From: a bacterium
GTDB taxonomy: Bacteria > Auribacterota > UBA3054 > JAAYZF01
Direction of reading: 5' to 3'
Assembly (NCBI GenBank): GCA_012514975.1
Contig: JAAYZF010000080.1
Span: 1 to 40,065 of the forward strand
DNA: 40,065 bases
A program made the translations under genes and the position numbers. The notes beneath the pieces were generated by a model that was not told the DNA's origin, made no database searches, and was given only the letters and a program-made list of their open reading frames with translations. How positions within the stretch are numbered: the stretch's first letter is position 1; the number at the start of each line of letters is the position of its first letter. Positions 23,006 to 40,065 of the stretch are shown here, piece by piece.

Positions 23006-25477
23006 TCAGTATGGTTTCGGCACGTTCCAGTTCGTCGTCGCGCCGGTATGCAGCGGATTGATGTAGATGATGTAGCCTTTGCCCGCCTGCAGGTTCGTCG
23101 CCGATGCGTCGTCGTAGAACCATGCGCCAAGGCCGCGCGACGCGGTGAACGTGTTGCCGCCCACCGGCTCCTGGCTCTGCACGCGGTCGCGGTTGATCAG
23201 GAACCCGGCCTGGTCGGTCAGCACCGATGCCACCGCGCCCTGGTCGAACGACGCCTCGTACGGATACGGGTACGCCACCCAGTTCTCACGGAACGTCACG
23301 CCGTCGGACTGGACGATGCCGCCGACCGTGTGCGCCGGGTCGTTGCGCACCTTGCCGACGAACGTCAGAGGCTTGTCCGGCCCGGTGTGCAGCGGGTTGA
23401 CCAGGATCGAGTACATCTTGTTCGCGTACCAGTTCGTGGCGATCGGCGAATCCATGAACCACGTGTTGCTTCCGCGCGACGCGGTGAACGTGTTGCCGCC
23501 GATCGGCTCCTGCGCCTGGACGCGGTCGCGCTGGTTCAGGAATCCCGCCTGATCCGTCAGGCATGCTGCCACGCCGATTTCGTCGAAGGACTTGAACGCG
23601 ACGGTGTTGCCGCTGGCATCGAGCAGGTCGAACGGGCAGGACACCCAGTTCTCTCCGAACGTCACGCCGTCGGACTGCCTGATCTTCATTGTGTAGGCGC
23701 CCACGGCATACGCGCTCGTGTACGGCCCGCTGGCGATGAGGTAGTAGACCGCCGGGTAGTTCGTCGACTCGAGGTCCGTCCAGGGCGACGTCACGCCTTG
23801 CGCGAGCACGAGCCAGTCGGCGGCGTTCGAGGAGAAGTAACGGTTCGTGCATGCGAGCACTCCGACGGTGCCGTTGCTCCACGTCAGGTTGATCACGCCG
23901 CCGTCCATGTTGATGCTGAACTGCTCGACGTCATACGGATTGACCGGCGTGAGGCGCGTCACGAGCAGCGTGTCGACACTCTCCGCGCCAACGCTGTTCG
24001 TGCCGGCGACGGTGATCACGTTGAGGCCGTAGACGAGGTTGCTGATGGTCGCCTGCCACGAGGCCGCCGCGGGCACGCTGCCCGAGTCGGTCATGATGCC
24101 GGCGATGCTGTTCGAGTAGCATTCGTAGACGAGGCTGCCCGCGCAGTAGAGGCTCGTGCCGCCGATGGTCACGCTCGACACGCCGCTCGCCACGACGAAG
24201 TCGGCATTGGTAATGTCAACGAACGGCGGGGCAATGTACGTCACGTCGTGCGTATCACTCGCCACGTCGCCCGCGATGTTCGACCCGTACACGGCAATCG
24301 TGTTCAGGCCGGGAACGAGCGCCACTGGGTCGCCCCACGCGAACGCGGCTGCCACGCCGCCCGCGGCGGCGTTCGAGACCCAGAGCGCTGCTGTGTAGAT
24401 GCTGTTTGTGCCGAAGATGTCAACGGAGGCTGTGAGGACGCTCTGCGGCGCCGCATTCGTTATGTCCACGAACGCCGGGCCGGGAGGCGGCGCGGACGCC
24501 ACGAGCAGATGCCTCAGCATTCCGCCCGGCTCATTCGCGCCGTTGTACAGGCCGAGCCGCCGGTCGAACAACGCATACACGTTCGATGCGGCCGGCGTGA
24601 ACACGCCGTCGGCAGTGTTGAGCGGCGCGATGGTGGTGGCATAGGTGTCGCGGGGATACGCCACCGGCTGGCCGTTCTCCGCCACGAGCGTGAACAGGGC
24701 ATCGTTGATCATCGGGATGTGATAGTCGATACCCGCGTTGATCATGCGCAGGAGGACGCGGCTGCCGGCAATGCCGACGTGGATGGGCGGCAGGCCGTTG
24801 GTATAGGACACGCCATTGATCATGAAATACCGCGGAGCATACTTGAGCGTGCTCGTGACGCCGAGGCCGGGCCCGTAGTCGTTCGAGGCGACGGCATCAT
24901 GGAGGTCTGGATCGATCTCACTGAAGAACAGCGTGATGTCCTGGTCGATCGGCACGCCGGGATACGCCCCGTCCGCGGTTTCGAGCTTGGTAAGCGCGCC
25001 ATAGAGGCCCATCTGCACCTGCAGCGCGGGATGCGAGCCGCTGTGATAGACATGCGTGCCCGCCTGGACGTTCGTCCAGAGAAAATCAGCTCCGCCGCCC
25101 GGCGCCGCCTCGTGCGTGAACGACCGCGCGCGCCCGTCGCCATTGCGGACGGGATCGCCAATCGAGGACGCCAGGCCGGGGACGACGATCGACACGGGCT
25201 CAGGGAGCTCGTTGGTAAGATGGATCAGCAGGTCCTGCGCGCCGGCGTCAAGGGCGATCGCCGGGCCGGGCACGGTGACGGCGCCGTCCTGGCTGCCCGG
25301 GCCCGAGTCCTGGGCGAAGCCCCACATGAGCACCGTTCGTCCGTCGGCCATGGTGTTCGTGACCGTGGCCGCGCGGAAGTAGAGCTCAGTCAGGGCGGCC
25401 TGGCACGTGCCCGCGGCAACCAGGCAGACTCCCAAGATGAGCATCCGCAATCCCGTATTCGTACTTGAACATTTCAT
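23006..25477 (-). CDS. Exported cupredoxin/MCO-like protein with Ig-like 'FVDITN' domains and a duplicated C-terminal domain (~823 aa)
   Basis: ATG at 25477 with GGAG; signal peptide MKCSSTNTGLRMLILGVCLVAAGTCQA; GTHVYHSGSHPALQVQMGLYGAL; PFVDITN...GTN repeats; two SDGVTFxENWV...LTDQAGF...RDRVQxQEPxGGNTFTASRG units. Confidence 0.8.
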   Translation of the reverse strand: MKCSSTNTGLRMLILGVCLVAAGTCQAALTELYFRAATVTNTMADGRTVLMWGFAQDSGPGSQDGAVTVPGPAIALDAGAQDLLIHLTNELPEPVSIVVPGLASSIGDPVRNGDGRARSFTHEAAPGGGADFLWTNVQAGTHVYHSGSHPALQVQMGLYGALTKLETADGAYPGVPIDQDITLFFSEIDPDLHDAVASNDYGPGLGVTSTLKYAPRYFMINGVSYTNGLPPIHVGIAGSRVLLRMINAGIDYHIPMINDALFTLVAENGQPVAYPRDTYATTIAPLNTADGVFTPAASNVYALFDRRLGLYNGANEPGGMLRHLLVASAPPPGPAFVDITNAAPQSVLTASVDIFGTNSIYTAALWVSNAAAGGVAAAFAWGDPVALVPGLNTIAVYGSNIAGDVASDTHDVTYIAPPFVDITNADFVVASGVSSVTIGGTSLYCAGSLVYECYSNSIAGIMTDSGSVPAAASWQATISNLVYGLNVITVAGTNSVGAESVDTLLVTRLTPVNPYDVEQFSINMDGGVINLTWSNGTVGVLACTNRYFSSNAADWLVLAQGVTSPWTDLESTNYPAVYYLIASGPYTSAYAVGAYTMKIRQSDGVTFGENWVSCPFDLLDASGNTVAFKSFDEIGVAACLTDQAGFLNQRDRVQAQEPIGGNTFTASRGSNTWFMDSPIATNWYANKMYSILVNPLHTGPDKPLTFVGKVRNDPAHTVGGIVQSDGVTFRENWVAYPYPYEASFDQGAVASVLTDQAGFLINRDRVQSQEPVGGNTFTASRGLGAWFYDDASATNLQAGKGYIIYINPLHTGATTNWNVPKPY

Positions 25478-25518
25478 GACTGTCTCCTGGTTGTCAGAGA
25501 GCACTATGCGCCGTTAAG

Positions 25519-26832
25519 TCAGGGCGTGGCCATGGGCATCATGTTGGTCATCGTGTACGCTTCGACCATGGCCATGGTGAGCATGCCGCCTGGGAAGATG
25601 TCGTTGTTGCAGATTTCCTTTTCATTGTGGGAGTGCCACATGAACATGAACGCATTGTTCGGATTGAACCCGCCGTCGCCCGGGGGAAGGGTGCCGGGCG
25701 TGCCCAGGAACGGGCTGCCGCCGAAGTGCTGGCCGAAGGTGAGCTGCTGGTCGTTGGGCAGGGACACGGGGAAAGGCTTCCCGTGGTCGGGCTCATACTC
25801 GAACGGCGCGAGCGGGTCGTTCGTGCTCATGTGCCCATACGCGTCCCACCCGAGTTTCTCGCCCGTCCACCAGAACAGTGAATCGTATGTTTCACCAGGC
25901 ATGACGGGGATGGTAAAGACTGACCGGCCGACATCAGCGCCGGCGCCGGGCGCGCTTCCGAGCATGCGGCCGTTGCGCGCGATGATCAGGCTGTTGTTGC
26001 CGTGGTGGTGCAACGGGTGCGGGTCGCGCCCGCCGCCGATCACGCGCATCAGGACGCGCTGGCCGGGATTGAACATCGGGACGCAGTTGTACGGCTGCGT
26101 GGGCAGCCAGGGCACGTTGGCATCAATCATCGTGTCAGGCCCCGTGCGACCGTTCATGAACCAGTAGACGGGCCAGTACTTCGCCATGTCGATCTCGTCC
26201 ATCCTGTTCTGCTCGACCAGGTCGTGTATGGTTTCATCCATCTCGGTGAGCAGGAAGAGGAACTCGGTGTCATACGCCGTGTTCGTATGGCCGTACGCCT
26301 GAGTCATGCCCATCATGGTATTGGTGGGGCGGACGATGAACGCGCCGACGATGCCCATCTCGATCTGCAAGTCGGGCCGCGTGCCGCTGTGATAGAGATA
26401 CGTCCCCGGCTCGCGCGCGGTGAAGGTGTAGGTTACCGTGCCGGTGCCCGGCGCAACCTCGCGTGTGATGGCCCCCTGAATGCCGCCCGAGGCGGTGACG
26501 CCAACCTGCCCTGGAAACACCAGGGACACCGGCACGGATAGTTCGCTGGCGAGCGTGATGTTCATCTGCGCGCCCTGCATCACGGTGAACGTCGGAGCGG
26601 GATACTGCACCTGGCCGCCGCCGGCCGCGAGGCCCCAGATGTAGATGCTGTTGCCGTCGCCCGTGCTGATGTGCCCCTCGCGCGCGGTCAGCGTGACCGT
26701 CGTGTTCGAGATGCCGTCAATCACGTGCAGCATGCCCATGTGCTCTGCCCGGGCGGTTCCCGCGGCAAAGAGGGCGGGCATGATCACTCCGGCCAGGATG
26801 GCGTTGAGAGCGTTCCACGGATGCGTGTTCAT
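25519..26832 (-). CDS. Exported multicopper-oxidase-like cupredoxin protein (437 aa), no HCHxxxHxxxGM type-1 motif
   Basis: Signal peptide; GTYLYHSGTRPDLQIEMGIVGAFIV; HPLHHHGNNSLIIARNG (HPxHxHG); FMWHSHNEKEICNNDIFPGGML. Confidence 0.85.
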   Translation of the reverse strand: MNTHPWNALNAILAGVIMPALFAAGTARAEHMGMLHVIDGISNTTVTLTAREGHISTGDGNSIYIWGLAAGGGQVQYPAPTFTVMQGAQMNITLASELSVPVSLVFPGQVGVTASGGIQGAITREVAPGTGTVTYTFTAREPGTYLYHSGTRPDLQIEMGIVGAFIVRPTNTMMGMTQAYGHTNTAYDTEFLFLLTEMDETIHDLVEQNRMDEIDMAKYWPVYWFMNGRTGPDTMIDANVPWLPTQPYNCVPMFNPGQRVLMRVIGGGRDPHPLHHHGNNSLIIARNGRMLGSAPGAGADVGRSVFTIPVMPGETYDSLFWWTGEKLGWDAYGHMSTNDPLAPFEYEPDHGKPFPVSLPNDQQLTFGQHFGGSPFLGTPGTLPPGDGGFNPNNAFMFMWHSHNEKEICNNDIFPGGMLTMAMVEAYTMTNMMPMATP

Positions 26833-26875: not shown

Positions 26876-29800
26876 CTACTGGATTCTGATCTCGGTCATC
26901 ATGCCGCCGTAATCCTCGGTGTCGTTGCTCAGGTGGTTGAGCCGCGCGTCGTAGAGGAAATACGTCCCGGGCGCCACGCCCGTGGTATCGAGGATCGCGT
27001 CATACGCCTCGCCGCCGCCGAGAGTGATGGTGTGCGTCCGGTAGTAGAGGTTCGAGCCGTTCGCCCCTCGCAACAGGCGCGCATCCTTGCCCACCACCGT
27101 CATCGGGATGCCGAGCACGGTGATCGAGTGGAAGTCGGCGACTGACAGGTTCGAGATGCGGAGCAGGATTTTCTGCCCGGCGGTCGCGGTGACAAGCGCA
27201 TTGATCTTCTGCGAGTAGTTGTCGGCGGAGGCGTTGTAGATCCAGTTCGTGCTGATGGTCTCCGGATAGCCGCGGCCGTTGATCATCGGGTAGCTTTCGT
27301 CGAGCGACCAGAAGGGCAGCGGCTGCACGGCGATATGCTGCTCGTGGAAGTACCGGTCGAAGCCCGTCACCTGGATCGGGAAGTCGACATCGTAGTGGGT
27401 CGACCCGTCGCCGTCATTGTAGGCATAGGTGTAGCCCGCATGATGCGTGAAGCCGTTGAGATCGGTTCCCTCAGGCAGGTTGTTCTGCTTGGGCAGCACG
27501 TAGAGGTTGCCCAGCATGCCCATCTCCATGTGCTCGGTCGCTTCGACGTGGCAGTGATACATGAACGTGCCCGGCTCGACGATTTCATAGTAGTAGCGGA
27601 GTGTCGAGCCCATGTTGACCGAGATCGATCCCATCGGCTCGCCGTCGAATATCGGCGCCGCGTTCGGGAAGCCGTGGAAGTGCACGGTGTGCGGGTCGAA
27701 GAGGTCGGGCCGCATCATCATGCCGACGTTGGCCAGGTCGAGATAGACGCGCTGTCCTTCCTTGAAGACCATGGTGGGCGCGCTGAACTCGGCCTTGAGC
27801 ATGCCTTCCATCATGATCATGGGCGGCGTGATGTGGCCGTGGCCGCCGTCGCCGTGCTGCAGCGCAATGTCCGTCATGTCGGAGAAGCCGAAGCAGTAGA
27901 GCTCATTGCCGTCGGCCATCTTGACGAAGCCGTCGCTGGCGGCGAGCATGACGTACTTGACGTCGTTGCTCACGTCGCCGTCGCCGTCCGTGTCGATGTT
28001 GTCGGTATCCTTGGGATAGGTGCTGGGAATCATCCGTGTCGAGTGGACATAGCCTGCCAGGGCGTAGCCCGCGGCGAGGCCCTGCTCGTTGCCGTAGCTG
28101 AAGTGGATGCCGCCCCAGACCCGCTCGACGCCGGCCTCGTTGGCAGCTTCGCTGAAGCTGCCATAGTAGCGGACCATGTTGGGGTTCATGTACTCCTGCA
28201 CGGCGAACACGAAGCTGTCCGTGCCGAAGAACCCGCTGAGGATGCCCGCGGCAGCAGCGCTGAACGAGCTGTGCGCGCTGACGTACTCGGGGAAGGCGGG
28301 CGTCGTGACGAACGGCGTCCAGCCGGCGTCCTGCACCGTGTCCGGATTGCCGTCAGTGTCAGCCTCGCGTATCGCGGCAATGGGGCGCCAGCGGTTGTAA
28401 TGGTATTTCGCGTCCCATGCCATGATGCCCGCGTCAGCCTCGGCGACGTTGAGCAGTGCGAACAGCCTGGCGTTCTCATAGAGTGAGTTCGTCCGCGCCG
28501 CGGCGGCGAAGCGCGCGATCTGGTTCCACCTGCCGGCGGTCGTGATCGTGCCGGGCATGTCGGTCCAGAACATCACGGTCTGCGTCTGACCCATGGTGCG
28601 GTTGGTGCTGGCGAGCGCGCCGATGGTCTGCACCTCGTTGACTGATGCCGCATACTCCGCGCTGTCAAGCTCCGGAGGCGCGGGCGGGCGGAACTGCATC
28701 ATGTGCATCATGGCAAACGGCTCGGCCATGCCCCAATGCGGCATCATCGGCGGCAGATACCCCGGAGGCGTCGGACGCCAGTCGCCCGGATCGACGCCCG
28801 GCGTGTAGTTGGTCATCATCATCTGCATCATGTCGCCGGCGCGCCATGCAAGCATCTGGTCGGCGATCTGCGCGCCGAGATTGATGCCGTTCGTCTTCGC
28901 AATCCCGTCGGGCACCATGGCGAGCAGATTGGTGAGCGAGACATTCAGGTAGCCCACGTACCCTGTGTAGACTCCTGCAAGCACCCTGTGCGCAGCCGCG
29001 GCAACCGCCGCATCAGGCGAGCACGGGTAGCCCGGATTCATGGAGACGCGGTACGGGTTGTATTCCTTTTCGATCGAGTTGACCGCGTCGAAGCCTGCGC
29101 CGTGCACCATGGCGAGCGTGCGGGATGCGACGGGCGCCATCTGCATGTTGGTCTTCACCATCTGCAGGGCGATCAGGTTCCACATCGTCACCATGTCCTG
29201 CGCGATGAACATGCCGTTGGTGAGTGTGCCCTGCAGGGCCGGCGTGCCGTCATAGCGGACGACGAGATAGGGCAGTGTGCGCTGGTTGTTGTTCTCGTTC
29301 TGCTCCGCGGCGCCGCCCGTCGAGTCGGCGAACGCGCGGAACGTCGGCGCGAACTGGTTGTCGCCCGGCGCCGGGATTGGCGGCGCGGCGAGCGCGTTGA
29401 ACACGACGGTCGTTATCCCACCGGCGGGAAGCGTGCCGAGGATGGCGAACGCGTCTTCCGGCGTGGCCGGCGGGACATCGGCGCCCGGCCGGTCGAGCCA
29501 GATCGAGAGCCGCGCGCCGGCGCCGGTGGCGGCGCCCTGGTTCCAGACGGTCACGAAGGCATTGAACGTCCCGCCATTCGTCACCACGGCCGGCACGAGG
29601 CTGATCTCCCTCACGGTGTACTCGGGCGCGGGAGGAGCGACGGTGATGGTGACGACGGCGATGCTGCTGGTCGCCTTGCTGTCCGCGGCCATGTAATAGA
29701 AGGTATCAACGCCATCGAACCCGTTGTCGGGCGTATACTCGAACGAGCCGTCAGGGTTGAGGGTCAGCGCGCCGTCGCTCGTGCCGGAGAACAGCACGGC

Positions 29801-32800
29801 CGTGAGCGGCTCGAAGTCTCTGTCCGTGTCATTGATGAGCACGCCGGGCGCGGGCACGGTGAGCGTGGTCTGATAGGCCGTGTCGTACGCGTCATCGACG
29901 GCCACCGGCGGGTCGTTCACCGGCTGGACCACAAGGAGCACTTCCGCCGGAGTGCTGCGCGCGGCGTTGTAGCGCGCACGGTAGGTGAACGAGTCAACGC
30001 CGTAGAAATTGCTCTCGGGCCGATAGGTGATCGAGCCGTTTGACGCAAGGGTCAGCACGCCGTGGCCGGCAGTGGTATCGAGCTGGGCAGTAAGCGCGCC
30101 CGGCCCGCTGTCGTTGGTGAGCACGCCGGGGGCGGCAACGACGAGAAGCGTGTCCTCGGTCGCCGCGTAGATATCGTTGGTGGCGAACACGGTGGTCACG
30201 GAGTATTCGTCCGCGCCGATGTCGGGATCACCGCTGTACGGCCTGTACTGCGTGTCAAAGTCGCCGCGCAGGACGGGATAGGTGTTGAGGAAGCTTGATT
30301 CGGCCTCGTCACGCGCGGGCGATCCGCTCGGGATGTGGTAATTCCCCTGCGCGCCCGTGGGCTCGAAGCGGACGTTGATGTTGTTGCCCGCCTCGTCGAT
30401 AACGGCCGATGCCACGAGGTAGTTTGTGTAGCCTGCGATGAATTCAGGATCGTCGGCGATGTTGGATGAATGATAGCCTGCCGCACTCGACAGGAGGCAG
30501 TACCGCGCGTTGAGCACCGGCTGGCCTGACGGCGACTGCAGATCCTTGTAGAACGTGCCCGGCGCCGGCGCGAGCGACTGGGTGGCGCGGCTGTAGTAGT
30601 ACGACCGGTTGTGCCAGATGATGCTGTCGTAGAGCGTCGGGTTCGAGTACTCCTGGCCCGATGCGGACTGGAGGGCGTCCGTGTGCGGGAACGAGGCGAT
30701 GCCCGCGCCCTGCGGCGTGGATTCATTCTCGCCTGCCTGGAACGCGGATTGCGAGGTCGCCGAGCTGTCGTTGTGCGCGATCGTGTTGTGAATGATCGTC
30801 ACGCGCGCCGCATCGGACATGGAGATGCCGCCGCCCGCGTACCCGGCCACGTTGTTGACGATGACGTTGTTGAAGATGTTGACGGCGTACCAGTCGAGCG
30901 GATTGGGGCTGGCCTGCACGTCGACGCCGTTGACGCCGCTGAGACAAATGCCGCCGCCGCTGCCCGAGCCCGAAAGGTTGCCCTGGATCAGGTTCCCGTC
31001 TATTGTCACGCTGCCCGAGCCGCTGCTGAGCGCCGCACCGCCGCCGGCAGCGATTGCTTCGCCGCCGATGAAGATGCCGCCGCCGTCGCCGCCGACGATG
31101 ATGCCGTAGAAGACTTCATTGTTGCGGATGATGTTGCGGGCGATGAGGCCGCCGTCGCTGAGGCCCTCGTGGCCGATGCCGCCGCCGCTGCCGCGGCAGA
31201 AGTTGCCGAGGATCAGGTTGTCAAGGATGCGGTAGCCCGCCGCGCCGGTGTAGACCGCAATGCCGCCCGCGCCGTTCACGCCGCCGTTCTTCAGAATCTG
31301 GTTGCCCTGTATCACCACGTTCGAGTTGTAGAACACGGTGCCCGCATTGTCCAGCTGGCCAAGGGAGATGCCGCCGCAGTACGTGCCCTGGTTGCCGTCA
31401 ATGCGGTTGTTGCTTATGCGGAGATTGTGGGCGTGCATGTACACCTGCACGCCGCCGCCGGCGATCGAGCTGCGGATGGCGAACCCGTCGATGCGCGACG
31501 CGTGCTCGGTGAAGTCCGTCGGTTCCACGCCAAAGACGGTGAATCCCGAGTTCTCACTTGCCGGGAACGGATCGCTGCCCAGGACCGAAACCACCTTCGC
31601 GTGCCATGCCGACAGGCGCGACGAAGGCGAGGGATTCGCATTGATGACCGTGCCCGCGCCCGCGCCCTGGACGCGCACGGGCTTGTAGATGATCGGATTC
31701 TCGTAGTAGATGCCCGGGCCCACGAGGATCAGGTCGCCCGGGTTGGCTGCGTCAACCGCCTCCTGTATCGGGTCGGGCAGCGGGTCGCCGCCCGTGGCGG
31801 CGCGCGGGACGACCTGGTGGACGGCGCCGGCGCCGGCGCCGTACGTGAGCGTCACGCCGATCGGCGTCGTCAGACCGCTGTCACCGCGCGTGACCATCAG
31901 CCGGCCCTCGGAACCGACGGGGAGCGTCGCGGGAATGCGCGCAAGGATCGAGTTGCTGCTCCACGAGACGATCGGCATCGCCATGCCCTCGAACGTCACC
32001 GAGCCGGCCGTTGCGCCGAACGAGTAGTCGCGCGTGATCAGGTTCGAGCTCCCGAACAGCAGGTCCGGGTTCGGCACAAGCGTCATGCCCATCGAGGTGA
32101 TCTCGATCACCTGCGAGGTGCTCGTGACGAGCGGGCCGACGAAACCGGTCGTCCGATTGGTTACCAGGTTGATGACCGGCGTGTGGTCGGCCGGCTCGGC
32201 ATCGAGCTGGTTGTTCGGATAGCCGACAAAGCCGGCGATCGGCACGATCGGCGTATCCGCGTAGAGCATCATGCCGGGATAGTACTGCAGCGTCCACGGC
32301 GTGGTGCTGAAATTCGGATTGTAGTGCGGATCGGGTATGCGCCGCTTGCCCGTCGGGTCCGTCGGGTCAGCCATGGTCGGGTCGTTGAGCAGAATCGTCA
32401 GCATGTTCGGCGCGACGCCGCTCGGAGAGGGGACATTGACGGTGTAGGTGGAGGGCACGAGCGCGTTGTACGTGCCGTACTCATCCGAGTAGACGTGGGC
32501 GACTTCGTTGCCGGCCCAGTCGCGGACGGAGATGGGGAGCCAGCCGGGCGAGCCTTTCTCGCCGTAGATCGGGCTGAAGGCGTTGAACTCGGCCGTCAGG
32601 TCATTGAGCACGAACCCGATGAGGCGGGTCGCCTTCGGCACTTCGGTGTACATGTGGAAGTCAGCCGCGGCATTCCTGCCGCCGGCGACGCGCACCCACT
32701 TCATGTCGGCCAGCGGGCGCATCTGGCCTGCGAACGGCGCGGGAACCTGCTGGTCGGGGAACAGCGTCAGGTACGGCGGAACGATGTGGAGCGGGTCGCC

Positions 32801-35221
32801 GTTGTTCGTCGTGCCGACGCACTCGGGCAACAGGGCCAGCTTGCTCGGCTGGTAGGCGTCGCCGAACACGACGTTCACGCTCTCTTCCTTCTGGATTTCA
32901 TAGCCGGTGGGCGGAACGGCCTGGACGATGTACATGCCCGGAGGCAGGCCATCGACTTCGTTCGTCCCGTTCGCCATGCCGCCGGGGAAGTACGAGGTGA
33001 ACGCATAGCCGCCGTCAAACACGGCCGGGCAGATCTGGTTCCACGTGCCGTAATTATCGCTGCCGATGATCGCCTTTCCGAGCACGACCGGCGGGTTTGT
33101 CTGGATCGAGCCGACGGGCTTGTTGTCGTCCCAGCTGTCAGTCCAGGAGATGTTGAGCGCATCGCCGGGGTCGAACACACCGTCATTGTTGTGGTCAATG
33201 TCTTCCGGCCCTTTGGTTCCGCCATCGGCCCAGCCGAGAGGCCAGTTGTCCACATCGGCCTGGGTGACATCGCCGCTGCCATCAAGATCGTCAATGATCT
33301 TGTCGGCGTTGCTGTCGGCGTAGAGGATCATCTGGACGCGGGGGATGCCGGGCTCCCATCCGTCACCGACAGCCTGGCGCGGGTCTTCCTCGGCGCGCGT
33401 GGTGCAGTAGAAGGCGATGCCTGAGATGCCGCCGTTCTCGCCCTCGGGATACTCGACCTTGCCCCAGTCGATCCGGTTGTTCTGGTTGAGGAAGAGGTGC
33501 ATGGCCTCCGTCAGCACAGGCCCCGTCTCCGTACGGCTCCAGTGGTTGCCCGTGTTGGGATTGTCGATGGGGATGGGCGCGCCGCTCCCGTCGGTCAACA
33601 CGACGCCTGTGACGGGATCGGTTTCGTACTGCCCCTGCGGGTTGCGCACATTGTCGGACGGCATGTTCCAGCCGTCGTCCGGCGGGATGAATCCGCCGTC
33701 ATCGACGACGGCCGTCATGCCGCTTGCCTTGTAGCGCGCGAAATCGACTTCCGCGACGAGCCACTTGAAGAACGGGAACACCTCGCTGAGCTGGTACTCG
33801 CCCGCGAGGTCGGTAATGGTTGCCTGGTAGACAGAACCGTCGCGGAAGCGGAGGTTGACGGCCTGCTCGGGAATGCCTGGTTCGCCCTCGTCCTTGAACC
33901 CGTTTTCATTCTCGTCGTAGAAGACATTGCCTTCGAACGTGCCGAACCAGCGGTACGACAGCACGTTGCCCAGGTTGACGACGCCGTCCTCGCCCTCGCC
34001 CACGTTGATGGTGTTGAAGCCGAACAGCGCGTCGAGCGGCGTGTCCCACGTCACAAGCTGATAGGTGCCCGGCGGGACATTGGTGATCTCGAACGCACCG
34101 CTGTCATCGCACGGCGCGGCATACAGGCCCGCGCCCGGCACATTCATCGCGCCGATCTCATTGAGCCCGATCCATGCTTCGCCCACCGGCGGGCCGGGCG
34201 CGAATTCCTGGTTGTTCGGCGGGCGGCCGAAGTGGTTGAAGATGTTTGTGCCGCGCACGATCACGTTGTCCGCGGAATACGGCGGCGGATTCGATGCCCA
34301 GACCAACTGTGCCGGATCGACGAAGCCGAAGAACGCGTGGTAGAACCCCGGGCCGAATCCCTCGATGAACAACGGCGACTCGTTCGCCGTCACCCATGCA
34401 TCCACTGTAAGCGTGCCCTCGATCGTCGCCGTCTGATGCCAGACGCCCTGGACGTTCGCGCCGCCATGCGCGCCCATCCAGTGGCTGCCCGATGGCGGGA
34501 CGACCGTGACGCCGTATTTGCCCATTGCGAGGAACTTGATCGTGGCGAGCCCGTTGGTGTCGCTAAGGATTTCGCCGCTGCCCATGGTGTCAACGACGTA
34601 GTTGCCGTCATCGTCAGTGAGGTACTCCCCCATCGAGTTCGTGGCGTACGTCGTGCCCAGCGGGTTGGCGAACACGTCCTGCATGATCGGCCCGCCGCCG
34701 ATGTCGGCGAGATTGATCTGGAATCCGGCAAGCCCCTGCTCCGTCGCGTCAGGCACATTGTTGATCGAGTTGTTGTCATGGAAGACAAAGACCGATATCT
34801 GCGCCGTCGGCAGCGGATGCTTGTTAAGGATGACCACGACGTTCGTCTGGCCGGCGGCAACGCCGGCGCCGCCAGTGGCGTATCCGTCGGCAAGCACCGA
34901 GATCACGTAGCGGTTGCTCGCGTCAGGCACCGTCACCTCGGCCGTGTGCGACGCGCTCCCGTTCGTCTGGACCACGGGTGCATGGCTGTCGTGTATGACG
35001 AGCGAGATGCTGTCATTCGTCGGCACGCCGGGAATGGTGAGCGTCGTGTTATCGAGCTCGAGCATCCAGCGTATGCCGTTCGTCACCGGGTTCGCGTCGG
35101 CATCGAGCACGTTGAGGGTAAACGCGCTGGCCGCCGCGCCTGGAAGGAACGCGGCAAGTGCGCACACGAGGATGATGACATTGAACCGGGCTCCCTTCGG
35201 GCGCGAGTATGATGTGTTCAT
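26876..35221 (-). CDS. Giant exported fusion protein (~2781 aa): SdrD-B-like, IPT/TIG-like, right-handed beta-helix, VCBS/cadherin-like and CARDB regions, then vanadium-dependent haloperoxidase and multicopper oxidase domains
   Basis: ATG at 35221 (MNTSYSRPKGARFNVIILVCALAAFLPGAAASA signal peptide) with AAGGAC upstream; the ORF-track start at 35455 lies upstream of the predicted sigma-54 promoter. Haloperoxidase motifs KYHYNRWRPIAAIR, PEYVSAHSSFSAAAAG, RVWGGIHF; copper motifs HTVHFHG and YHCHVEATEHMEMGM. Confidence 0.9.
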   Translation of the reverse strand: MNTSYSRPKGARFNVIILVCALAAFLPGAAASAFTLNVLDADANPVTNGIRWMLELDNTTLTIPGVPTNDSISLVIHDSHAPVVQTNGSASHTAEVTVPDASNRYVISVLADGYATGGAGVAAGQTNVVVILNKHPLPTAQISVFVFHDNNSINNVPDATEQGLAGFQINLADIGGGPIMQDVFANPLGTTYATNSMGEYLTDDDGNYVVDTMGSGEILSDTNGLATIKFLAMGKYGVTVVPPSGSHWMGAHGGANVQGVWHQTATIEGTLTVDAWVTANESPLFIEGFGPGFYHAFFGFVDPAQLVWASNPPPYSADNVIVRGTNIFNHFGRPPNNQEFAPGPPVGEAWIGLNEIGAMNVPGAGLYAAPCDDSGAFEITNVPPGTYQLVTWDTPLDALFGFNTINVGEGEDGVVNLGNVLSYRWFGTFEGNVFYDENENGFKDEGEPGIPEQAVNLRFRDGSVYQATITDLAGEYQLSEVFPFFKWLVAEVDFARYKASGMTAVVDDGGFIPPDDGWNMPSDNVRNPQGQYETDPVTGVVLTDGSGAPIPIDNPNTGNHWSRTETGPVLTEAMHLFLNQNNRIDWGKVEYPEGENGGISGIAFYCTTRAEEDPRQAVGDGWEPGIPRVQMILYADSNADKIIDDLDGSGDVTQADVDNWPLGWADGGTKGPEDIDHNNDGVFDPGDALNISWTDSWDDNKPVGSIQTNPPVVLGKAIIGSDNYGTWNQICPAVFDGGYAFTSYFPGGMANGTNEVDGLPPGMYIVQAVPPTGYEIQKEESVNVVFGDAYQPSKLALLPECVGTTNNGDPLHIVPPYLTLFPDQQVPAPFAGQMRPLADMKWVRVAGGRNAAADFHMYTEVPKATRLIGFVLNDLTAEFNAFSPIYGEKGSPGWLPISVRDWAGNEVAHVYSDEYGTYNALVPSTYTVNVPSPSGVAPNMLTILLNDPTMADPTDPTGKRRIPDPHYNPNFSTTPWTLQYYPGMMLYADTPIVPIAGFVGYPNNQLDAEPADHTPVINLVTNRTTGFVGPLVTSTSQVIEITSMGMTLVPNPDLLFGSSNLITRDYSFGATAGSVTFEGMAMPIVSWSSNSILARIPATLPVGSEGRLMVTRGDSGLTTPIGVTLTYGAGAGAVHQVVPRAATGGDPLPDPIQEAVDAANPGDLILVGPGIYYENPIIYKPVRVQGAGAGTVINANPSPSSRLSAWHAKVVSVLGSDPFPASENSGFTVFGVEPTDFTEHASRIDGFAIRSSIAGGGVQVYMHAHNLRISNNRIDGNQGTYCGGISLGQLDNAGTVFYNSNVVIQGNQILKNGGVNGAGGIAVYTGAAGYRILDNLILGNFCRGSGGGIGHEGLSDGGLIARNIIRNNEVFYGIIVGGDGGGIFIGGEAIAAGGGAALSSGSGSVTIDGNLIQGNLSGSGSGGGICLSGVNGVDVQASPNPLDWYAVNIFNNVIVNNVAGYAGGGISMSDAARVTIIHNTIAHNDSSATSQSAFQAGENESTPQGAGIASFPHTDALQSASGQEYSNPTLYDSIIWHNRSYYYSRATQSLAPAPGTFYKDLQSPSGQPVLNARYCLLSSAAGYHSSNIADDPEFIAGYTNYLVASAVIDEAGNNINVRFEPTGAQGNYHIPSGSPARDEAESSFLNTYPVLRGDFDTQYRPYSGDPDIGADEYSVTTVFATNDIYAATEDTLLVVAAPGVLTNDSGPGALTAQLDTTAGHGVLTLASNGSITYRPESNFYGVDSFTYRARYNAARSTPAEVLLVVQPVNDPPVAVDDAYDTAYQTTLTVPAPGVLINDTDRDFEPLTAVLFSGTSDGALTLNPDGSFEYTPDNGFDGVDTFYYMAADSKATSSIAVVTITVAPPAPEYTVREISLVPAVVTNGGTFNAFVTVWNQGAATGAGARLSIWLDRPGADVPPATPEDAFAILGTLPAGGITTVVFNALAAPPIPAPGDNQFAPTFRAFADSTGGAAEQNENNNQRTLPYLVVRYDGTPALQGTLTNGMFIAQDMVTMWNLIALQMVKTNMQMAPVASRTLAMVHGAGFDAVNSIEKEYNPYRVSMNPGYPCSPDAAVAAAAHRVLAGVYTGYVGYLNVSLTNLLAMVPDGIAKTNGINLGAQIADQMLAWRAGDMMQMMMTNYTPGVDPGDWRPTPPGYLPPMMPHWGMAEPFAMMHMMQFRPPAPPELDSAEYAASVNEVQTIGALASTNRTMGQTQTVMFWTDMPGTITTAGRWNQIARFAAAARTNSLYENARLFALLNVAEADAGIMAWDAKYHYNRWRPIAAIREADTDGNPDTVQDAGWTPFVTTPAFPEYVSAHSSFSAAAAGILSGFFGTDSFVFAVQEYMNPNMVRYYGSFSEAANEAGVERVWGGIHFSYGNEQGLAAGYALAGYVHSTRMIPSTYPKDTDNIDTDGDGDVSNDVKYVMLAASDGFVKMADGNELYCFGFSDMTDIALQHGDGGHGHITPPMIMMEGMLKAEFSAPTMVFKEGQRVYLDLANVGMMMRPDLFDPHTVHFHGFPNAAPIFDGEPMGSISVNMGSTLRYYYEIVEPGTFMYHCHVEATEHMEMGMLGNLYVLPKQNNLPEGTDLNGFTHHAGYTYAYNDGDGSTHYDVDFPIQVTGFDRYFHEQHIAVQPLPFWSLDESYPMINGRGYPETISTNWIYNASADNYSQKINALVTATAGQKILLRISNLSVADFHSITVLGIPMTVVGKDARLLRGANGSNLYYRTHTITLGGGEAYDAILDTTGVAPGTYFLYDARLNHLSNDTEDYGGMMTEIRIQ
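26879..27990 (-). other. Multicopper oxidase (cupredoxin) region of the giant fusion
   Basis: MLAASDGFVKMADGNELYCFGF...HTVHFHGFPNAAPIFDGEP...GTFMYHCHVEATEHMEMGMLG...LNHLSNDTEDYGGMMTEIRIQ. Boundaries approximate. Confidence 0.85.
28020..29255 (-). other. Vanadium-dependent haloperoxidase (VCPO-related) domain of the giant fusion
   Basis: K-x6-R (KYHYNRWR), S-A-H (VSAHSSF) and R-x5-H (RVWGGIH) match the spacing of the vanadate ligands of fungal chloroperoxidase. Boundaries approximate. Confidence 0.85.
30200..31800 (-). other. Right-handed parallel beta-helix region of the giant fusion
   Basis: Repeated N-N-x-I/V-x-N/G-N motifs: 'HNLRISNNRIDGNQGTYCGGISL', 'NSNVVIQGNQILKNGG', 'NIFNNVIVNNVAGYAGGGISM', 'HNTIAHNDSS'; DPEF/IGADEY end. 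Confidence 0.8.
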
Positions 35222-35325
35222 GCAGTCCGTCCTTGTTTGATGAGCTGCTTCCTTTAGGATTCCGCTGTCGGCGTTTCGCTGCGAACGTCCCACTCCACGC
35301 ACGACCCATCCGTATGTCCAACAGA

Positions 35326-35340
35326 GCAAGGCACGTGCCA
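35326..35340 (-). promoter_or_regulatory. Sigma-54 (RpoN) promoter of the haloperoxidase-MCO operon: TGGCAC-GTGCC-TTGC
   Basis: Minus strand CGTGGCACGTGCCTTGCTCTG: -24 TGGCAC (35340-35335), 5-bp spacer, -12 TTGC (35329-35326), T at the next base. Matches YTGGCACGNNNNTTGCW. About 105 bp upstream of the ATG at 35221. Confidence 0.85.
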
Positions 35341-35472: not shown

Positions 35473-35511
35473 CATGACGCCAGTGTCATGCCGCATGACC
35501 GCCACGTCATC
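35473..35511. promoter_or_regulatory. Tandem enhancer-like palindromes CATGAC-N6-GTCATG and CATGAC-N6-GTCATC
   Basis: CATGAC GCCAGT GTCATG (35473-35490) and CATGAC CGCCAC GTCATC (35494-35511); centres 21 bp apart; roughly 165-190 bp upstream of the predicted sigma-54 start site. Confidence 0.75.
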
Positions 35512-35553: not shown

Positions 35554-35591
35554 AAAGGATCGCCGGCGCGCATAGCGACCGGCGATCCTTT
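35554..35591 (-). terminator. Terminator downstream of the hybrid histidine kinase
   Basis: AAAGGATCGCCGG-N12-CCGGCGATCCTTT, perfect 13-bp arms; the minus-strand tail reads CCTTTGTTTCC. Confidence 0.8.
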
Positions 35592-35701: not shown

Positions 35702-38338
35702 TCAAGCGTGGCTCGCGCCGACGGCCGATACGGCCATGCCGGCGTGCGCGTGCCCGTTGCTTAGGAGTTCCTTGACCGCGCGCAGAAGCGCGGTCACACG
35801 GTACGGTTTCTGGATGATGCGGTACCCGCGTTCGCGGATCACGTCCCATGATGCCCGGTCCTCGGCGTAGCCGGTCACAAGAAGGACGGGCAACGCGTTC
35901 TTTCTCGCGGCGAGGTGCGTGGCAAGATTGAGCCCGTTGCCGTCAGACAGGAGCAGATCGGCAATGAGCATGTCCGCGCGCCCCTGATGTTCGTCAAAGA
36001 GGCGGAGCGCCTCGCGCACCGTGCCGGCGCGCAGGACGGAATAGCCATGTGTGCCGAGCACGCGCCTGGTGAGATTGCTTGTCCCGGGATCGTCCTCGAC
36101 GAGGAGGATTGTCTGCCCGTCTCCCACGAGCTCTTCGCGCGCGGACGGGCCGTCATTCTCCGCGGCGGCGCCGTTGGCCTCAAGATCGGCAGGCATGTAC
36201 ACACGGAAGGCGGCGCCTGCGCCGGGCTCGCTCTCGCCCGTAATCCAGCCGCCATGCTTCGTGGCGATGCCGTAGCAGGCTGCAAGGCCGAGGCCCGCGC
36301 CATAGCCCGCGCCTTTCGTCGAGAAGAAAGGCTCGAAGATGTGCTCCTGAACGTCCGGCGCGATGCCGACTCCCGTGTCCAGGACGGCAAGGCAGACGAA
36401 CGATCCTTCGCGCGCAGGCTCGACGATCCTGTGGCCGCCGGCGTTGCGGAACTCCGCGTTTGCGGTGGAGATGGTGATAACGCCGCCACCGGGCATGGCC
36501 TCGCGCGCGTTGGTCACGAGGTTCATGATGATCTCCTCGATCTGGCCCTGGTCGGCCTTGACGGGCCAGAGCGCCGGCTCGAGGTCCATCTCGAGCGATA
36601 TGCCGTCGCCAATGATCCTGCGGACCATGGGTTCCATGCGCATGACCAGCTCGTTGAGGTGCATGCGGCGTAGTTCGTATGCATGGCTGTGGCTGAAGGC
36701 GAGAAGATGGCGGGACATGGCGCCGGCGCGGTGGGCGGCTTCCTGGATCGCCAGCGCATCGGCCCGTTTCCCATCGTCCTCAGGCAGTTCGAGCAGCAAC
36801 GCCTCGCTCGACCAGGTGATGACCTGGAGAAGGTTGTGGAAGTCGGCGGCGATGCCGCCGGCGAGGCGGCCGACGGTTTCGAGCTTCTGCGAGCGCATGA
36901 GGTGCTCGCGCAGCGCGTTGTCGTGCGTGACATCATGCTCGACGGCGACATAGTTGACCGTGCGCCCCTCGCCGTCTTTTACCGGCGTGATCGTCGCCTC
37001 GACCTGGAAGAGCGTGCCATCCTTGCGCCGGTTGGTCAGGTATCCTGACCAACTGCCGCCGGCGCCCAGCGTCGCGTGCATCGTCTCGTAGAACGCGTCG
37101 TCGTGCGCGCCGCTCTGAATCATGTGCGGCGTGTTGCCCACCGCTTCGTCCCGTGTGTATCCCGTGATGTGCTCGAACGCATTGTTCACATACTCGATAC
37201 GACGGTGCGCATCGGTGATGACAATCGCCTCGGCCGCCTGGTCGATTGCCGTTGCAAGCAGGCTGATCTTGCCGGCAGCCGTGCGGCGCTCGGCGTTGTT
37301 CCTTCGCACCAGCGCGAGGCGGGCGCGCCTTTCTTCGAGACGCGAGCGGAAGAACGCCGCCTTTTGCCGCTGCCCAACGTATGCAAGGACCACGGCAGCC
37401 ACTCCCATCAGCCCGGCCACCAGCGCCGCCGTCCAGAACACGTGGGTGCGAAACGGCGCCATCGCCTCCTCGCGGTCGATCTTCGATATCACGTTCCAGG
37501 GCGAATCCGCGACACGGCGGGCGGCGGCAAGGACCGGCACGCCGCGATAATCGCAGCCGCGCACCGTGCCTTCCGCACCGCGCAGCACCATGGCTGATAC
37601 AAGCTGCTCGTTGGTCACCGGCAGGCGCAAGGCGCCGCCATCGCGACCCGCCGGCCCGGCGACGTAGAACACTTCATCCCCGTCGCGCGTTACGAGCAGC
37701 GTTTCAGCCGAACGGCTCTGCCGCGGCCACTCGCGGACAAGCGGATTGAGCACAGTGCCTGCGTCAATCCGCTCCGCCAGCACGCCCGCCGGCGCGTTCG
37801 ACCCATCGACTACAGGCACGAGAATATCAAAGTGCGGCATGCCGGCAGAGCCCGCCGGGCTGCAATCCGACAGGATCGGCGTCCGTGTGCGCAGCGCTTC
37901 CGCAATGCTCGATCCGTACTCCCCGTGGACGCTCTGCACGTCGCACGGGGACGCAAGCAAGACCGTGCCGTTCGTATCGAGCAGCAGCGAGCAGCAGTAG
38001 TCGTCCATGACGTGTACCGATTCGAGCCATGCACGCACATCCGCTTCATTGCCGCCGCGCGCCGGAAGCCGCAGATACGCCGCGGCATGCCGCATAATCA
38101 GCGTGTTCGCCTGCGTGGCGCGCGCGTCGTTCAGACGCTCGCGCCGCCATGTCTCAACTCTTTCCTGGACCGACCGGGCGACGGTATCGAGCTCGCCCAC
38201 CGCGCTCCGCTCGACGAGCTGCTTGTCGCGGACGGTCATGACATAGGCAGCCAGCATGATCCAGCTCGCAAGCACGAGGTACAGCACGGGATATGTCCAC
38301 CTCTTGATACGCATTGTACGGTGCACCGCCGGGAACAT
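35702..38338 (-). CDS. Hybrid sensor histidine kinase: TM-flanked Cache-like sensor, PAS, H-box/HATPase, C-terminal receiver (non-canonical H-box)
   Basis: ATG at 38338 or 38314. TM segment VLYLVLASWIMLAAYV; LLLDTNGTVLLASP; PAS 'AIVITDAHRRIEYVNNAFEHITGYTRDEAVGN'; N-box NLVTNAREAMPGGG; G-boxes DTGVGIAPDV, GLGLAACYGI; receiver LLVEDD...IADLLLSDGNG...QKPYR. Confidence 0.9.
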   Translation of the reverse strand: MFPAVHRTMRIKRWTYPVLYLVLASWIMLAAYVMTVRDKQLVERSAVGELDTVARSVQERVETWRRERLNDARATQANTLIMRHAAAYLRLPARGGNEADVRAWLESVHVMDDYCCSLLLDTNGTVLLASPCDVQSVHGEYGSSIAEALRTRTPILSDCSPAGSAGMPHFDILVPVVDGSNAPAGVLAERIDAGTVLNPLVREWPRQSRSAETLLVTRDGDEVFYVAGPAGRDGGALRLPVTNEQLVSAMVLRGAEGTVRGCDYRGVPVLAAARRVADSPWNVISKIDREEAMAPFRTHVFWTAALVAGLMGVAAVVLAYVGQRQKAAFFRSRLEERRARLALVRRNNAERRTAAGKISLLATAIDQAAEAIVITDAHRRIEYVNNAFEHITGYTRDEAVGNTPHMIQSGAHDDAFYETMHATLGAGGSWSGYLTNRRKDGTLFQVEATITPVKDGEGRTVNYVAVEHDVTHDNALREHLMRSQKLETVGRLAGGIAADFHNLLQVITWSSEALLLELPEDDGKRADALAIQEAAHRAGAMSRHLLAFSHSHAYELRRMHLNELVMRMEPMVRRIIGDGISLEMDLEPALWPVKADQGQIEEIIMNLVTNAREAMPGGGVITISTANAEFRNAGGHRIVEPAREGSFVCLAVLDTGVGIAPDVQEHIFEPFFSTKGAGYGAGLGLAACYGIATKHGGWITGESEPGAGAAFRVYMPADLEANGAAAENDGPSAREELVGDGQTILLVEDDPGTSNLTRRVLGTHGYSVLRAGTVREALRLFDEHQGRADMLIADLLLSDGNGLNLATHLAARKNALPVLLVTGYAEDRASWDVIRERGYRIIQKPYRVTALLRAVKELLSNGHAHAGMAVSAVGASHA

Positions 38339-38389
38339 GACTGAGCGGCAGTTTTGATTCAGAGCCAAGAAGACCTCGCGTGTGAGGGA

Positions 38390-38404
38390 GCAAGACGCAT
38401 GCCA
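38390..38404 (-). promoter_or_regulatory. Sigma-54 promoter of the hybrid histidine kinase: TGGCAT-GCGTC-TTGC
   Basis: Minus strand GATGGCATGCGTCTTGCTCCC: -24 TGGCAT (38404-38399), 5-bp spacer, -12 TTGC (38393-38390), then T. One mismatch to consensus. Confidence 0.75.
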
Positions 38405-38478
38405 TCCGCACGCGGGCCGCCGTTGCGCGGAAAACACGGCATTCCGCCGCGCCACACGAGGGAAATGGCGGGAGACCT

Positions 38479-38517
38479 CCTGACGCGCCTGTCAGGCGGC
38501 ATGACCGTCATGTCATG
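38479..38517. promoter_or_regulatory. Tandem enhancer-like palindromes CCTGAC-N6-GTCAGG and CATGAC-N6-GTCATG
   Basis: CCTGAC GCGCCT GTCAGG (38479-38496) and CATGAC CGTCAT GTCATG (38500-38517), both with perfect arms; centres 21 bp apart, the same layout as 35473-35511. Confidence 0.75.
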
Positions 38518-38541: not shown

Positions 38542-39909
38542 CTACTGCCGCGGATTCTCTTCGTCCGCCAGCTCGGCCTGGAGAAGCCGGTAGAGGTGGC
38601 GCTCGCTGATGCCAAGCATCTCGGCCGCGCGCTTGCGGTTGCCCTCGCACTGTTCGAGGACGGTGCGCACGTGGCGGGAGCCTGCGCCCTTCAACGTCGT
38701 CGCGACGGGCCGGTCCTCGCGCGGCGAAAGCACAAGGCCGAGGTGATGCTCCTGGACTTCACCGGCGCCCTGGGACCGCGCGGTGAACGCGGCGCGCTCG
38801 ATCGTGTGAAGGAGCTCGCGCACGTTCCCCGGCCAGGCGTACGCAAGAAGCGTTTCGCGGGCGTCCTCGCTCAGCGCCATGGGCTGCCCGCCGGCATCGG
38901 ACAACCGCGCAAGGAAGGCGTGGGCAAGGGGCATGATATCCTCCACCCGGTCGCGCAGGGGCGGGATGTTGACGCGCAGGACGGCCAGGCGGTGATACAG
39001 GTCGTCGCGGAATTTCCCCTCGGCCATAACGTGGTCGAGGTTCCTGTTCGACGCGGCGATGACACGGGCGTCCACGGTCTTCTCGGCGCGGGCGCCGACG
39101 CGGCGGAAGATGCCGCGCTCGAGGAAGCGCAGCAGGCGCGTCTGCACGGCCATCGGGATGCTCGCGATTTCATCGAGGAAGAGCGTGCCGCCGTCAGCCA
39201 CTTCAAGCATGCCGGCCCGCGAGTCGGTGGCGCCGGTGAACGCGCCCTTCTCGTGCCCGAAGAGCTCGCTGTCGATCAATGTCTCGGAGAGCGCGCCGCA
39301 GTCGAGCACCACGAGCGGCGCCTCCTTCCTGCCGCTGTTCGCGTGGATGAACTCGGCGATGAGCTCCTTGCCCGTGCCCGTCTCGCCCTCGATCAGCACG
39401 GGCATCTCGGCCATGGCATACCGCCCGGCCATATCGAGCACCTTGCACATCGCGGGCGACTGCGCGATCATTTCACTCGCCAGCCGTGCGCCGCGCCGCG
39501 CCTGCACGTCACGATACGCGCTGTTCTGCCGTTTCAGCAGCGTCAGCTCGGCGGCGCGCATCACCACGGGCTCGAGCTCGGCAAGCTTCACCGGCTTCGT
39601 CACATAATCATACGCGCCCGCGCGCATCGCCTCGACGGCGGATTGGACGCTGCCCTTGCCGGTGACCATGATCACCTGGATGTGCGGATCGATGGCCTTG
39701 ATCTGCCGGAGCACGTCGAGCCCGCCCATGCCGGGCATCACAAGGTCGAGCACGACGGCGCTGATGCGTTCCGACTCGATCACTTCGAGCGCCGCGGCGC
39801 CCGTCTCGGCAGTGTGCGTCGTGAAGCCCCGCGCCGCGAGATACTCGGCGACGTTCTCGCGCAGGTCCTGTTCGTCGTCCACCACCACTACGGCGGCCTT
39901 ACGTTTCAT
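38542..39909 (-). CDS. NtrC-family sigma-54-dependent response regulator (receiver-AAA+-Fis-type HTH)
   Basis: VVVVDDEQD...[12 protein letters not shown]...[11 protein letters not shown] Walker A; GAFTGA; LFLDEI Walker B; C-terminal [26 protein letters not shown] helix-turn-helix. Confidence 0.97.
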
Positions 39910-40065
39910 GCGTTCCTCCCGGCAGCCAGACGCGGAACAGCGTTCCCGCGCCCTCCTTGCTCTCGACGCTGATCTTTCCGCCGGCCGTCGTCACCAGCTT
40001 GTGGCAGATGTAGAGCCCGAGCCCCGTGCCGCCCTGCCCCTTCTTCGTCGTGTAGAACGGCTCGA
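39899..40065 (-). CDS. C-terminal fragment of a sensor histidine kinase (HATPase domain), truncated by the window edge
   Basis: Minus-strand translation ...[54 protein letters not shown], stop at 39899-39901; overlaps the response-regulator start by 11 nt. Not in the supplied ORF track. Confidence 0.9.

Follow-up and report, generated by a model that had tools for sequence, protein, structure and literature searches.

A probable pseudo-histidine kinase with alanine at the phospho-acceptor position, encoded beside an NtrC-type regulator

We analyzed a hybrid histidine kinase gene in a window of 40,065 nucleotides (the whole stretch of DNA studied) and found that the encoded protein carries an alanine in place of the phospho-acceptor histidine, and that its gene and a nearby operon for exported oxidases share a sigma-54-like promoter and tandem-enhancer layout, which is the new observation here. 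Very likely the protein does not act as an ordinary autokinase on the usual residue. The reading that we favor, to which we assign a probability of about 0.45 for the model as a whole, is that it would exert negative feedback on its own circuit as a kinase-dead phosphatase, as a phosphate sink, or as both.

Gene layout and variant H-box

The open reading frame of the hybrid kinase comprises 917 codons on the minus strand (35702–38455). Because the GTG codon at 38455 sits upstream of the sigma-54-like promoter described below, the true start is probably the ATG at 38338 or the one at 38314, and we annotate the gene as 35702–38338. From the N- to the C-terminus, Pfam recognizes a PAS domain, the HATPase_c (CA) domain (36188–36553, minus strand) and a receiver domain (35774–36109, minus strand). 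A Pfam search of the N-terminal sensor region returned no match, and this membrane-flanked region appears from its sequence to be Cache-like. The same sensor also occurs, at 28–35% identity, ahead of kinases of other types in the same and in related genomes. We class the protein as a membrane-bound HDFNN kinase resembling CckA, which is also its nearest sequence in the PDB. The source genome amounts to 4.1 Mb in 484 contigs and is approximately 76% complete; one of these contigs makes up the entire window.

The H-box of this protein (36824–36859, minus strand) is encoded by GGC GGC ATC GCC GCC GAC TTC CAC AAC CTT CTC and reads GGIAADFHNLL. The phospho-acceptor histidine that an active HisKA kinase of the HDFNN class needs is thus an alanine (codon 36847–36845), a histidine is found at +3 (codon 36838–36836), and the Asp at +1 and the Asn at +4 are kept. 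The original prediction had given exactly these codons and positions. It had also stated that the acceptor is normally the His of AHDFNN and that Asn is usual at +3, which agrees with an alignment of 107 homologous cores taken from this and related genomes, from other phyla and from viral contigs. In it, the acceptor histidine is invariant (107/107), and the +3 residue is Asn in 105 of the 107 and His in the remaining 2. The prediction had proposed to look for conservation of ADFHN in homologues; it was present in none of these (0/107), no close orthologue was found among them, and ADFHN is known from one genome.

Motif scans gave the same picture. Across 44 genomes of the phylum, we counted 119 instances of the canonical pattern (G-x-A-H-D-F-x-N and then 2 hydrophobic residues) and a single acceptor-less one, which lies in the hybrid kinase gene. 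In 189 genomes of another, histidine kinase-rich phylum, the acceptor-less DFNN motif was found 0 times, with approximately 158 canonical motifs in only 38 of those genomes; the acceptor-less pattern leaves out codons starting with C (Gln, Arg, Leu, Pro), and variants of that kind are missed by these counts. The kinases recovered by motif patterns from IMG/VR contigs all retain the acceptor histidine. A protein search of the genome contigs produced a single match, which is distant, and a literature search for AHDFNN found nothing. In all, the hybrid kinase is the one acceptor-less kinase found across the several hundred genomes scanned, and DivL is the sole natural case found in the literature searched. 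Natural histidine kinases lacking the acceptor histidine are rare.

The assembly is fragmented, which could raise the suspicion that the variant H-box results from a sequencing or assembly error. This explanation is scarcely credible, given that relative to CAC and AAC there are 3 in-frame substitutions in 2 codons, the neighbouring codons are intact and the frame is open throughout; the original prediction had likewise considered a read error unlikely.

A different explanation is that the +3 histidine serves as a new phosphorylation site, so that the kinase functions with an acceptor shifted by one helical turn. The histidine lies on the same helix, beside the intact Asp (+1) and Asn (+4), and the CA domain is intact. 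However, in HisKA domains one and the same position must be reachable by both ATP and the aspartate of the regulator, and rotation and rise of the helix would take the +3 side chain off that position. The +3 residue has, moreover, a role of its own in DivL, where R553 belongs to the regulator-docking surface and is needed for docking of DivK (PMC4211667). Scanning approximately 630 genomes for G-x-A-x-D-F-H-N yielded 7 matches, namely the hybrid kinase, 2 AHDFHN kinases (L042 and L046) and 4 unrelated proteins. In the last 4, DFHN is preceded by A, V or I, and from their sequences they appear to be class V aminotransferases and a D-Ala-D-Ala carboxypeptidase of the VanY-like kind rather than kinases. 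Viral-contig scans for xDFHN and for acceptor-less H-boxes yielded no kinase, so that no kinase with the relocated arrangement appeared in the genome, phylum or viral-contig scans. Because L042 and L046 both keep the canonical histidine, the change of Asn to His at +3 appears to be a tolerated substitution rather than a replacement acceptor. The simplest history suggested by these sequences has the +3 residue changing either before the loss of the acceptor or independently of it. Relocation of the acceptor to +3 hence seems unlikely, and we give it a little less than one chance in ten. The interpretation offered in the original prediction survives in part: the half that proposed a kinase-dead protein fits the absence of the acceptor and the retention of the CA domain, the receiver and the DxxN motif, but the half that proposed a moved acceptor is not supported, there being no ADFHN homologue and the kinases with histidine at +3 keeping their acceptor.

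Kinase core, receiver and phosphatase motif

Compared with the 107 homologues, the CA and receiver domains are ordinary, unlike the DHp domain. Alignment shows that the CA domain has what an active HisKA kinase requires of it, namely the N-box (N139), the G1 box (D183-G185-G187), the F-box and the glycines of the G2 box, and that the receiver keeps its acidic pair, phospho-acceptor Asp and Lys (D278, D323 and K373; core numbering in all cases). Pfam and the alignment thus bear out the earlier statement that the N-box, G-boxes and receiver residues look intact.

The DHp domain (36692–36922, minus strand) is predicted to form a helical hairpin (α1-α2) that includes the variant H-box. Pfam HisKA gave no match to it, and the 2 homologues tested score 31–32 bits. 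Besides the H-box, the domain departs from the consensus at G38W, L70M, T71S and R79H (core numbering). Of 23 conserved DHp columns, 6 are changed, the fourth highest number among 108 sequences. AlphaFold2 nevertheless models the DHp and CA core as helices at residues 2–46 and 52–78 followed by a normal CA domain, with a mean pLDDT of 82.5, and the top structural match of the predicted DHp-CA unit is CckA (5idj), DivL (4q20) also scoring high. Together with the alignment, this predicted fold gives the definition of a pseudo-histidine kinase, a kinase fold in which the acceptor residue is replaced, and the hybrid protein is probably one.

The changed DHp columns, in a protein known from one genome only, could also be early lesions in a hybrid kinase gene that is losing its function. 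Such decay is improbable: the frame of 2.6 kb is uninterrupted, the codon-position G+C pattern is strong throughout, CA and receiver are intact, and the gene is preceded by a promoter whose paired enhancers are particular to the kinase/regulator circuit.

In the second half of the DHp domain and the linker that follows (36626–36748, minus strand; core residues 60–100), His and Met make up 24% of the residues compared with an average of 3.9%, a content that none of the 107 homologues reaches (0/107). The enrichment may reflect metal binding, given the co-regulated copper oxidases described below, or may be incidental. On the first possibility, the His and Met residues of both DHp helices would bind copper or another metal and thereby control a catalytically idle receiver protein. 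This is a long shot; the enrichment is one of composition, and several of the His and Met residues fall past the point where the helix is predicted to end. That the catalytic helix has been rebuilt in either way, with the acceptor at +3 or as a metal-responsive His/Met bundle, would be chemistry undescribed for HisKA domains, and we put this at around one chance in ten.

Because the acceptor residue is alanine, the hybrid kinase would be unable to autophosphorylate at the normal site. We infer the absence of autokinase activity by analogy with CrdS, in which the single acceptor substitution H371A abolishes kinase activity and merely reduces phosphatase activity (PMC3510030). In that protein, the kinase reaction uses the acidic residue at +1, and the phosphatase reaction uses the Asn at +4 (PMC3510030). 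The phosphatase motif of HisKA transmitters, defined as E or D at +1 and T or N at +4 (PMC11502775, PMC3510030), is present here as Asp28 and Asn31 of the core. A hybrid protein unable to autophosphorylate can act in this way, as illustrated by RetS, whose receiver serves as a sink and whose DHp motif serves as a phosphatase, both against GacS (PMC5992135). The kept motif is, however, no proof of activity, because DivL is inactive both as a kinase and as a phosphatase (PMC4211667).

The protein could instead have been repurposed in the manner of DivL, its core having neither kinase nor phosphatase activity and serving as a docking or sensing platform that binds the phosphorylated regulator, or heterodimerizes with another kinase, and tunes it allosterically. 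DivL, in which Tyr replaces the acceptor, acts without catalysis when it binds DivK-P and controls CckA, and since its docking requires the +3 residue R553, the altered +3 residue here could mean altered docking (PMC4211667). Likewise, a ChrS pseudokinase with a frameshift in its CA domain raises signaling through HrrS, and ChrS-HrrS heterodimers have been shown (PMC9491836). The departures of the DHp from the consensus at G38, L70, T71 and R79 would also fit such a role. Against it, the hybrid kinase retains the DxxN motif, an intact receiver and all CA boxes, the latter two needless for a pure docking platform. We regard this alternative as somewhat unlikely, at roughly one chance in four.

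DivL is the best-studied kinase without the acceptor histidine. Like DivL of Caulobacter (PDB 4q20), the hybrid kinase has lost the acceptor naturally and kept the DHp-CA fold, but it has Ala instead of the Tyr found in the DivL family, its receiver is intact, its DxxN motif is retained, and it shows no sign of orthology to DivL. CckA (Caulobacter/Brucella, PDB 5idj), its closest solved relative in sequence and fold, has the same PAS, HDFNN-type DHp, HATPase and receiver; however, CckA is bifunctional and has both the acceptor His and the Asn at +3, which the hybrid kinase lacks, and the hybrid kinase scores 344 bits, far below the CckA equivalog cut-off of 1000 bits. RetS of Pseudomonas aeruginosa resembles it in being a hybrid that has receiver(s), carries a phosphatase motif, cannot autophosphorylate and acts on the pathway of another kinase, but RetS keeps the histidine and has its lesion in a degenerate ATPase domain, the reverse of what we find here. 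CrdS/CrdA and NtrC-family two-component systems also pair a kinase with a sigma-54 activator, and their HisKA kinase and phosphatase residues have been mapped; the difference is the extra hybrid pseudokinase, under a promoter that is probably part of the activator's own regulon. The hybrid kinase is a variant, seen in one genome, on a kind of protein already represented by DivL and RetS. It combines a cleanly lost acceptor with retention of the ATP site, the phosphatase motif and the receiver.

Sigma-54-like promoters and neighbouring genes

Directly upstream of the hybrid kinase gene lies the gene of an NtrC/AtoC-type response regulator (38542–39909, minus strand), in which Pfam and NCBIfam recognize a receiver domain, a sigma-54 AAA+ domain and a Fis-type HTH; the translation contains the GAFTGA motif, and the AAA+ GAFTGA and the Fis-type HTH are those of a sigma-54 activator. 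On its other side, an ordinary histidine kinase (39899–40063, minus strand) overlaps the regulator start by 11 bases and is represented by a C-terminal fragment with the G2 box, recognized in the translation and cut by the contig end. Two contigs, C7 and C236, were considered as carriers of the missing part of this kinase and were rejected, since they join each other. Their starts overlap inside another AHDFNNLL kinase, which makes them genome neighbours.

Between the activator gene and the hybrid kinase gene, a sigma-54-like -24/-12 element, TGGCATGCGTCTTGCT (38389–38404, minus strand), has 1 mismatch to the consensus. With 1.5 matches of at most 1 mismatch expected, a single match of this quality is not significant alone. 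Upstream of it is a tandem enhancer (38481–38515) of 2 TGAC-N6-GTCA palindromes spaced 21 bp from center to center. The same arrangement is found upstream of the gene of a giant exported protein, where a sigma-54 element without mismatch, TGGCACGTGCCTTGCT (35325–35340, minus strand), is preceded by a second TGAC-N6-GTCA pair with identical 21-bp spacing (35475–35509). The window contains 5 copies of the single palindrome compared with 0.64 expected, a number that no shuffle reaches. The tandem pair occurs exactly twice in the 4.1-Mb genome, both times before these sigma-54-like promoters, and was found in none of 43 other genomes of the phylum. By sequence match, -24/-12 promoter elements with upstream enhancer palindromes are present, and the two tandem pairs have what reads as the layout of a sigma-54 enhancer. 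Their location and uniqueness suggest that the neighbouring NtrC-type regulator is the likely activator binding them, and the two promoters probably mark a two-promoter regulon of this regulator. Downstream of the kinase gene, at 35559–35586, an inverted repeat, ATCGCCGG...CCGGCGAT, is followed by a TTTGTTT-like sequence and resembles a terminator; the kinase operon is therefore probably transcribed separately from the oxidase operon.

The giant exported protein (2781 amino acids; 26876–35221, minus strand) combines cadherin/Ig-like, SdrD_B, β-helix, PAP2/vanadium-haloperoxidase-like and multicopper oxidase domains in Pfam, and its gene is a likely target of the same NtrC-type regulator. The next gene encodes a multicopper-oxidase-like protein (25519–26832, minus strand), and a second Cu-oxidase_3 protein was identified by Pfam at 23006–25504 (minus strand). 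Met-rich stretches (MMQMMM and MMHMMQ) occur in the giant protein, and the window also encodes a protein of 735 amino acids of Peptidase family C25 (gingipain-like fold; 18908–21115).

A candidate negative-feedback circuit

The sequence changes, the integrity of the domains and the layout of promoters and enhancers form the observed part of the feedback model, to which we add by inference the binding of the regulator, the sign of the feedback and the enzymatic activity. In this model, the ordinary partner kinase would phosphorylate the NtrC-type regulator, which in its phosphorylated form would turn on both the exported-oxidase operon and the pseudokinase gene. The pseudokinase, unable to feed phosphate in, would then lower the signal as directed by its own Cache/PAS sensors. 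It could do so by dephosphorylating the regulator through the DxxN motif, by drawing phosphoryl groups off the partner kinase onto its own receiver, as RetS does with GacS, or in both ways. The outcome would be negative feedback that carries a separate sensory input. The presence of promoter and enhancer sites at the hybrid kinase gene fits a brake built into the circuit better than a moved active site. The regulon is small and well marked, with 2 promoters, which makes the feedback model directly testable. If it is true, the organism would have a self-limiting circuit, the brake of which is a kinase able only to remove phosphate.
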